Below, one piece after another: positions 2,287 to 4,216 of a stretch of DNA of 7,500 nucleotides. The stretch's first letter is position 1, and every line of letters starts with the position of its first letter. The notes under the pieces are model-generated. The model saw nothing but the letters and a program-made list of their open reading frames with translations. It did not search any database and was not told the DNA's origin. The DNA comes from an uncultured Alphaproteobacteria bacterium (GTDB lineage: Bacteria; Pseudomonadota; Alphaproteobacteria; TMED127): NCBI GenBank assembly GCA_902567145.1, contig CACFLM010000001.1, positions 1 to 7,500 of the forward strand, in the 5' to 3' direction. Both the position numbers and the translations under genes were made by a program.

Positions 2287-3561
2287 TTGCAAAAGGTTAG
2301 AACAGTTAAAGGAACTAAAGATCTTTTAGGGAAAGAAATTCTCATTCATAATCTTATAATTTCAAAATTTGAAAGATTATGCAAAGTTATGAATTTTGAA
2401 CAAATCACCACACCTATTTTAGAGAATTGTGAAATTTTTACTCGTTCACTTGGTTTGAGCTCTGATATAGTTTCAAAAGAAATGTACAATTTTATTGATC
2501 AAGGGAATGATAATTTAGTTCTTAGACCAGAGGGAACAGCTTCAATAGCCAGAGCCATAATATCCAACTCACTCCAACAAGACTTAAATAAATTTTTTTA
2601 TTTTGGACCTATGTTTAGACGAGAGAGACCTCAGTCTGGTAGATTGCGACAATTCCACCAGGTAGGTATAGAGTACATTGGTTCAGACAGCTATTTAAGT
2701 GATATAGAGGTTATCTTGCTTGCAGAACATTTTTTAAATGAATTAAAAATAAGGAGCAAATTAATTTTAGAGATAAACTCATTAGGAAACGAAGAGAGTC
2801 GCTATGAGTATAATCTTTCTTTAAAAAATTTTTTAGAAAAGAATAAACAAAAACTTTCTGAAATAAGTAAAGATAGACTAAAAAAAAATCCGTTGAGAGT
2901 TTTAGATTCAAAAGACGAAGGGGATCAAGAAGTTATAAAGGATTCACCAAATATAATTGATTATCTCGATGAGGAGTCAAAGTCTTTTTTCGAAAATTTA
3001 ATAACTGCATTAGATGAACTTGAGGTTGATTATAAAATAAATAGATTTTTAGTAAGAGGCCTTGATTACTATAATCATACTGCATTTGAATATATTACTT
3101 CTGAAAAAAAAAGCCAAAATACTATTTTAGCTGGAGGAAGATACAATGGATTAGTTAAAAATTTAGGAGGTAAAGATATATCTGGAGTAGGTTGGGCTGC
3201 TGGAATTGAAAGGATTGTAATGCAGTTAGACAACCTTGAAGAAATTGAGGTTAAAAAAGTTTGTGTTTTTTCAACTGATAAAAGTCTAGATCTAGAAATT
3301 CTAAAAATGATCAATAATCTTAAAGTTAGCTCTTCAGTAAAGATAAATTTTATAAATGCCGGTTCTCTCAAGAAGAAATTTGAAAAAGCAAATAAAATGG
3401 GAGCTCACGGATGCCTAATTTTTGGTGAAAATGAGTGGAAATTAAAACAAGTGATTTGGAAAGATCTTATTTCAGGGAAGCAAAAACTCATTAATTTTAA
3501 TTATATAAATGAATTCATAAATAAAGATATCCATAATAAGAAAAGTGAAAGTCAAAAATAA
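2287..3561 (+). CDS. hisS: Histidine--tRNA ligase (HisRS)
   Basis: This class II synthetase charges tRNA-His in the cytosol. Counting from TTG 2287 (424 residues, the usual length), the N-terminal family signature is VRTVKGTKDLL. Motif 2 is FGPMFRRERPQSGRLRQFHQ at about 106-125. The histidine A loop is VRGLDYYNHTAFEY (about 256-269), carrying the catalytic-type Arg. The histidine B and motif 3 region is AGGRYNGL followed by GVGWAAGIERI (about 282-310). A divergent anticodon-binding domain fills the last 100 or so residues. The start is ambiguous. TTG 2287 gives a normal HisRS N-terminus 4 nt after the ispG stop. GTG 2242 would add 15 mostly Lys/Phe/Ser residues that overlap ispG by 41 nt and resemble nothing in the family. 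Neither has a convincing Shine-Dalgarno, so reading probably depends on coupling to ispG. The identity is certain; the start is about 65% for 2287. Confidence 0.96.
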   Translation: MQKVRTVKGTKDLLGKEILIHNLIISKFERLCKVMNFEQITTPILENCEIFTRSLGLSSDIVSKEMYNFIDQGNDNLVLRPEGTASIARAIISNSLQQDLNKFFYFGPMFRRERPQSGRLRQFHQVGIEYIGSDSYLSDIEVILLAEHFLNELKIRSKLILEINSLGNEESRYEYNLSLKNFLEKNKQKLSEISKDRLKKNPLRVLDSKDEGDQEVIKDSPNIIDYLDEESKSFFENLITALDELEVDYKINRFLVRGLDYYNHTAFEYITSEKKSQNTILAGGRYNGLVKNLGGKDISGVGWAAGIERIVMQLDNLEEIEVKKVCVFSTDKSLDLEILKMINNLKVSSSVKINFINAGSLKKKFEKANKMGAHGCLIFGENEWKLKQVIWKDLISGKQKLINFNYINEFINKDIHNKKSESQK

Positions 3562-4216
3562 TATTTTTTCCTCAAAGCCAAAACAAATCTCTCAGGCTAC
3601 TCTCCAAATTTTATTAAAAGTTTTTGGAGAACTTAGTAATGTAAGGCTGGTCGTGGCCAGTGATATGGAGTTGCCAATTAACATAGCTAAAAACTTTGAA
3701 ACTAGCGGATTAGGATATTACAAAGTTTTTGACGAATCATTTCAGAACCTCTTTGAAAAAAAAAGTAAAGACCTAAACATTAGAGACAATTTTATCAACT
3801 TGTTGAAGAATTACGACATGATTATGATAGGTTATAAAAATCAATTAAAAATTATTGATAAAGATTTCGTAAAGAAAATTTTAAGCAAAAGAAAGCAGAA
3901 ACCAATCTTTTTTGTAGATTGTGGTATTCCTGGAAACATAAATATTAATGTTAGTAAAATCCCTAACTGTTTTTTATTTGACTTAAATGATTTAGAGCAA
4001 TTATATTCTTCGTGGATTCAAAACAATGCAATAAATGAGGATACAAATAAAGAGCTTTATGATATAGAACTCAAAAGTTTAATGGACTCTTTTTTTAATA
4101 AATTAGATTTGAATTTAGAACAAAAATTAATCTTTGAGAAAAGAATAAATTTTTTGATTCAAAAAAGGGGAGATGAAATTAAATTCAGTTTAATTAAATT
4201 TTTGAAGAATTTTTAA
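3545..4216 (+). CDS. Truncated glutamyl-tRNA-reductase-like protein (Rossmann + C-terminal remnant, no catalytic domain)
   Basis: This 223-residue protein sits where hemA lies in the classic hemA-prfA-prmC order. Residues 15-152 follow the NADPH domain of glutamyl-tRNA reductase (GluTR) from end to end. ISQATLQILLKVFGELS matches the SSAAVxLAKxIFxxLS linker helix, RLVVASDMELP falls where the GAGE loop should be, and DMIMIGYKN falls at the ADIIISSTA strand. KQKPIFFVDCGIPGNI corresponds to RxxPxLLVDIAVPRDI, and NCFLFDLNDLEQ to xAYLYSVDDLQ. A short helical tail (153-223) is all that remains of the roughly 110-residue dimerisation domain. The roughly 150-residue N-terminal domain with the catalytic Cys and Glu-tRNA recognition is absent. 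Both glycines of the cofactor loop are replaced, so reductase activity is very unlikely. The GTG start overlaps hisS by 17 nt; the frame is closed upstream at 3518. The homology is a by-eye alignment to remembered GluTR sequences. The function is unknown. Confidence 0.78.
   Translation: MKVKNNIFSSKPKQISQATLQILLKVFGELSNVRLVVASDMELPINIAKNFETSGLGYYKVFDESFQNLFEKKSKDLNIRDNFINLLKNYDMIMIGYKNQLKIIDKDFVKKILSKRKQKPIFFVDCGIPGNININVSKIPNCFLFDLNDLEQLYSSWIQNNAINEDTNKELYDIELKSLMDSFFNKLDLNLEQKLIFEKRINFLIQKRGDEIKFSLIKFLKNF

Follow-up and report, generated by a model that had tools for sequence, protein, structure and literature searches.

The 7,500-nt window analysed here (positions 1 to 7,500 of contig CACFLM010000001.1, from an uncultured Alphaproteobacteria bacterium) carries on its plus strand, in this order, a rodZ-like gene, ispG, hisS, a short open reading frame (ORF), prfA, prmC and a DUF4167 gene, with an M23 peptidase gene on the minus strand. 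The short ORF, which we label X together with its homologues, encodes 223 aa from a GTG start (3545–4216, plus strand) and, on the evidence of the ORF list, profile matches and fold, is a putative pseudoenzyme gene derived from glutamyl-tRNA reductase (GluTR). Its upstream neighbour is hisS (2242–3561, plus strand; ORF list and Pfam) and its downstream neighbour prfA, encoding release factor 1 (RF1; 4221–5282, plus strand; ORF list and TIGR profile), followed by the RF1 methyltransferase gene prmC (5279–6151, plus strand; same evidence), in agreement with the coordinates and neighbours of the original prediction. With 17 bases shared with the end of hisS and four separating it from prfA, X looks like part of an operon. 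The order hemA-prfA-prmC is inherited in enterobacteria, and adjacency to prfA was set aside as a clue to the function of X, since an inherited order speaks of ancestry only.

X is homologous to GluTR (GtrR, HemA; TIGR01035; structures 1GPJ, 4N7R, 5CHE and 5YJL). Positions 163–328 of the 416 in the TIGR01035 hemA profile match its residues 15–178 (E = 2.4e-10; 39.9 bits, far below the cut-off of 209.55), and Pfam Shikimate_DH matches residues 81–152 (E = 1.9e-10). GluTR was the only PDB sequence match at E ≤ 1, with none to dipicolinate synthase subunit A or other Rossmann proteins, and came first in both structure-comparison lists by a gap of 5 Z units, the Rossmann-domain alignment spanning residues 10–156. 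X thus has, by fold and profile, a Rossmann domain of the GluTR type, in the same order of elements and at the same place before prfA-prmC. Unlike GluTR, it has no catalytic domain, catalytic cysteine or GxG, and ends in a short helical tail. Neither Pfam nor TIGR profiles found the N-terminal domain with the catalytic cysteine (GlutR_N) in the window protein, as had been predicted, and the domain is equally absent from the 16 aligned short forms (the window protein, G001–G014 and G155; G008 is a 184-aa piece).

The Rossmann, formerly NADPH-binding, domain of X covers residues 11–146 in the model and structure comparison (3575–3982; this and the following features lie on the plus strand). Three elements are fixed in an alignment (A3) of 52 rows of short forms, mostly close relatives: FSSKPxQI, PGN and DLNDLEQ. 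The first, FSSKPKQI in the window (residues 8–15; 3566–3589; seven of eight residues invariant), sits at the GluTR position of S-x-S, ahead of the first Rossmann helix. The second belongs to the PGNI loop (residues 129–132; 3929–3940), a position occupied by PRDV or PRNV in C5-type GluTR and often by PGDV or PADV in forms of the ALA synthase type. DLNDLEQ (residues 146–152; 3980–4000), invariant throughout, is modelled as the end of the last strand running into the C-terminal helix. Two stretches quoted in the original prediction are present in X and contain the residues that are most conserved in the short-form family, and these motifs stay invariant even between relatives at 37–40% identity. 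In contrast, the alignments show SDMELP (3659–3676) at the nucleotide loop against GAGEMG in GluTR 1GPJ; GxG is kept in 0 of the 16 short forms, and its first glycine in five. The earlier claim that residues 15–152 follow the GluTR NADPH domain therefore holds for fold and profile, the latter reaching residue 178, but with the glycine loop lost the region is not simply an NADPH domain. Beyond it, four predicted C-terminal helices (residues 147–222; 3983–4210) are a candidate equivalent of the GluTR dimerisation domain, with no Pfam match to GlutR_dimer at E ≤ 1.

X is under clear selection. Across ten pairs of relatives, which share sequences, pairwise dN/dS by the Nei–Gojobori method (NG86) was 0.08–0.16 in nine, the tenth being saturated; in the same nine pairs hisS gave 0.08–0.16 and prfA 0.03–0.06, and prmC, measurable in seven of them, 0.15–0.29. 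There were 424 homologues at E ≤ 1e-3, with lengths of 220–223 aa in 119 of 120 among the matches listed; this number, the low dN/dS and the GluTR fold place the ORF far beyond chance. Within the same order, 32 genomes were covered and 20 carry X. Of the 12 others, ten also lacked a prfA match at E ≤ 1e-100 (hisS was not searched in these ten), and in the remaining two prfA lay at the edge of the available stretch, with no upstream sequence to read; X was therefore present in all 20 genomes where its place could be seen. Frames were free of inner stops in 18 of the 20, one of them ended by the contig end. The original prediction had named neutral dN/dS and frequent frameshifts as signs of a decaying pseudogene: dN/dS is well below 1, as it had expected, and the two broken frames (G008 and G405) are both in drafts. 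With neither relaxed selection nor widespread breakage, we dropped the pseudogene reading.

The use of the 5-aminolevulinate (ALA) synthase route by Alphaproteobacteria is described in the available part of PMC11480375, a paper that also covers the 5-ALA-auxotrophic E. coli strain ST18, and limited to ‘some’ of them in that of the review PMC7242693. Relatives carrying the short form follow this route, as predicted: of the 15 short-form genomes tested, 14 (13 of the 14 in the named collection, plus G155) have an ALA synthase above cut-off, and the fifteenth, G004, has a 106-aa ALA synthase fragment. A separate GluTR over cut-off was found in none of the 14 genomes of that collection. For HemL, the partner of GluTR, the best match across 20 short-form genomes scored 263 bits, below its cut-off. 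HemB was found in 13 of 15, suggesting that the later heme pathway is there in most of them. Judging from these relatives, the window’s own genome presumably encodes ALA synthase as well. Heme auxotrophs occur among AEGEAN-169/HIMB59 members according to the text available from PMC10308909; the present genomes, which may or may not belong to that clade, encode ALA synthase and HemB for the most part. Plate prefixes of the single amplified genomes with X loci were absent from the main text of three HIMB59/AEGEAN-169 papers.

In a class sample of 385 Alphaproteobacteria genomes, TIGR01035 (E ≤ 1e-15) identified 72 homologues, 69 of them over cut-off, and the X profile added three short forms, giving 75. 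A scripted check placed hisS upstream and prfA downstream in 56 of the 75 loci; 12 had prfA downstream and, on the upstream side, ispG in 11 cases and hisS at a distance of 401 bases in one, two had prfA with no room upstream, four had hisS with no room downstream, and one (G104) had neither, its gene lying beside hemL. By locus and tree placement, X belongs to this alphaproteobacterial GluTR-like family. Of the 75 genomes, 64 encode an ALA synthase scoring above cut-off. Seventy of the 385 have a GluTR homologue but no HemL above cut-off, and 64 of these have ALA synthase. The full-length proteins, annotated as glutamyl-tRNA reductase, share with X their ancestry, their locus (in the class sample) and, in most cases, a Rossmann domain that ends in a [YF]DLxDLE-like motif; unlike X they keep the N-terminal domain and usually the cysteine (TCDR) and GxG. 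Named examples are Novispirillum itersonii and Varunaivibrio sulfuroxidans, known here from protein sequences alone. Cysteine-less full-length forms (G131, P0180, P0181; G072, G194, G289, G367) have lost the catalytic cysteine as X has, and differ from it in retaining the N-terminal domain; GxG is kept in six of the seven cysteine-less forms of the site table described next.

The site table, which includes 15 short forms as well, 12 of them from genomes beyond the class sample, and scores the G004 fragment as ALA synthase, sorts the full-length forms by catalytic site and pathway. HemL passed its cut-off of 527.3 bits in four of the 385 genomes (G071, G096, G193 and G288) and narrowly missed it in G104, at 520.4 bits; the site reads STCNR in the four and ATCNR in G104, and all five had no ALA synthase match at E ≤ 1e-95. 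The four (L110, L111, L112 and L043) keep an intact GluTR before prfA and are apparent C5-pathway members of the class. In G104 (L106), where no ALA synthase was found, hemA and hemL form a separate, possibly acquired, pair that does not lie beside prfA. A further 63 genomes had HemL-profile matches at E ≤ 1e-100 of at most 441 bits; these are probably other aminotransferases, although one R. sphaeroides gene is called a glutamate-1-semialdehyde aminotransferase in the available part of PMC4684066. Among the remaining full-length forms that have both the cysteine and ALA synthase, 51 are of the CD type (TCDR), two CE and two CN. On account of the two CN forms with ALA synthase (G280 and G393) and of six ALA-synthase-less genomes named below, Asp for Asn in TCNR was rejected as a perfect marker of the ALA synthase group. 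The cysteine-lost full-length forms number six with ALA synthase and one without. In five CD forms neither HemL nor ALA synthase was found; the lack of an ALA synthase match at E ≤ 1e-95 in these (G066, G069, G077, G100 and G274) and in the cysteine-less G367 may reflect incomplete assemblies. Throughout the class (L027–L112), TCDR GluTR-like genes coexist with ALA synthase and occur without HemL over cut-off, so the name glutamyl-tRNA reductase in their annotation may mislead.

Two trees bear on the order of the losses, with a base composition that differs between groups and could mislead both. In tree 2 (87 rows and 153 columns of the Rossmann domain only, rooted by choice on the C5 set), 19 short forms are one clade (100/100) whose nearest neighbour is the cysteine-less G131 group (96/88); the G289/G072 group, also cysteine-less, joins next (95/90). 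Tree 1 (86 rows), whose outgroup G104 is on a very long branch that calls for caution and whose bootstrap had not settled, also unites short with cysteine-less forms (95/89) and puts the C5 set beside them (93/85), a placement that tree 2 does not address. Cysteine-less forms are thus the nearest relatives of X in both trees, P0180 and P0181 being in the second only, and the cysteine loss of G357 is separate in both. The simplest reading, and the order favoured by the trees, would be that the cysteine was lost first and the domain later. Truncation thus ends a longer series at this locus, earlier stages of which are seen in other Alphaproteobacteria that have full-length forms alongside ALA synthase. 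Two forms stand aside: P0182, of 231 aa and 93% identical to the Rossmann domain and tail of the 399-aa cysteine-less G131 form, may reflect either another truncation event or a faulty gene call, and G117 (L107), a 379-aa form with VQFVDQP at the cysteine site, sits on a very long branch and is placed unsurely.

We consider X to be probably a pseudoenzyme descended from GluTR that acts by binding another macromolecule. ALA synthase would have taken over the supply of 5-aminolevulinate while the GluTR gene stayed before prfA; a full-length ancestor would have lost its catalytic cysteine, then its catalytic domain and GxG loop. What is left is a helical tail and a Rossmann scaffold in which FSSKPxQI, PGN and DLNDLEQ hardly vary; it should be unable to run the GluTR reaction and would most likely serve as a small regulator or adaptor. 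Selection that persists without the catalytic parts points to binding, and we infer such a role, with neither GluTR activity nor NADPH binding. The new, non-catalytic role of the original prediction accordingly agrees with the selection and the lost catalytic features, although the role itself is deduced from these. Several observations weigh against this interpretation. The gene is missing from 310 of the 385 sampled genomes, so its role is not needed class-wide. The broken frames of G008 and G405, the latter with ambiguous bases, may indicate decay in some lineages. The second glycine is absent too from six of 56 full-length CD forms, one of seven cysteine-less forms and G104, a genome with HemL but without an ALA synthase match; its loss is hence no proof of lost NADPH binding, for which the motif is an imperfect guide.

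Among other explanations, it is unlikely that X is an enzyme with a new activity, its Rossmann domain binding another nucleotide or metabolite for a different reaction and the TCDR forms being repurposed enzymes too. In most full-length relatives from genomes with ALA synthase, the cysteine, GxG and a stretch like GEPQVLGQVK are retained, so that these proteins may still do chemistry, and R. sphaeroides carrying the R. rubrum glutamyl-tRNA reductase gene made more 5-ALA (25.9 versus 12.4 mg per g dry weight, figure values being means of two replicates) in the available part of PMC4684066; this gain makes activity of some full-length forms possible. The short forms, however, lack the cysteine domain and GxG in 16 of 16, and the conserved residues of X are not recognisable as an active site. 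A rather improbable variant of the binding role would have X dock on ALA synthase and control it or the 5-ALA output: GluTR docks HemL, HemL and ALA synthase are related pyridoxal phosphate (PLP) enzymes, and, ALA synthase having replaced HemL, the GluTR body might have been kept, stripped of its chemistry, as a control. Text available from PMC7242693 states that GtrR and GsaM interact and that GsaM resembles AlaS; if docking were true, the relic would preserve a former pathway switch in the form of a regulator.

It is still less probable that X is a slowly decaying relic of little function whose frame couples hisS translation to prfA. Its tight junctions with both genes and the two broken frames would fit, as would clean loss elsewhere: a non-random set of 30 of the 310 X-less genomes gave 28 with prfA, hisS lay upstream of it in 18 (within 151 bases in 15, at 228–447 bases in three), and no X was detected at E ≤ 1e-4 in these 28 loci. 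Coupling alone does not conserve amino acids, however, and the low dN/dS, the motifs invariant between distant relatives and the presence of X in each of the 20 genomes of the order with a readable locus all speak against it. That X is an unrelated Rossmann family merely resembling GluTR has a negligible chance, and was dropped on the PDB sequence and structure comparisons, in which no other Rossmann family matched better, as well as the occupation of the same locus by full-length GluTRs.

X offers a testable case of an enzyme that outlives its pathway and becomes a pseudoenzyme in small genomes, one marine order keeping only the middle of GluTR, and suggests that many ‘glutamyl-tRNA reductase’ annotations in Alphaproteobacteria need checking. 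No earlier account was found in the open-access literature searched, whose coverage was partly incomplete and left most subscription papers outside, and viral contigs scanned with prfA yielded no relative. Next to prmC on its downstream side, the DUF4167 gene (window 6223–6714) recurs in many of the other alphaproteobacterial loci read.
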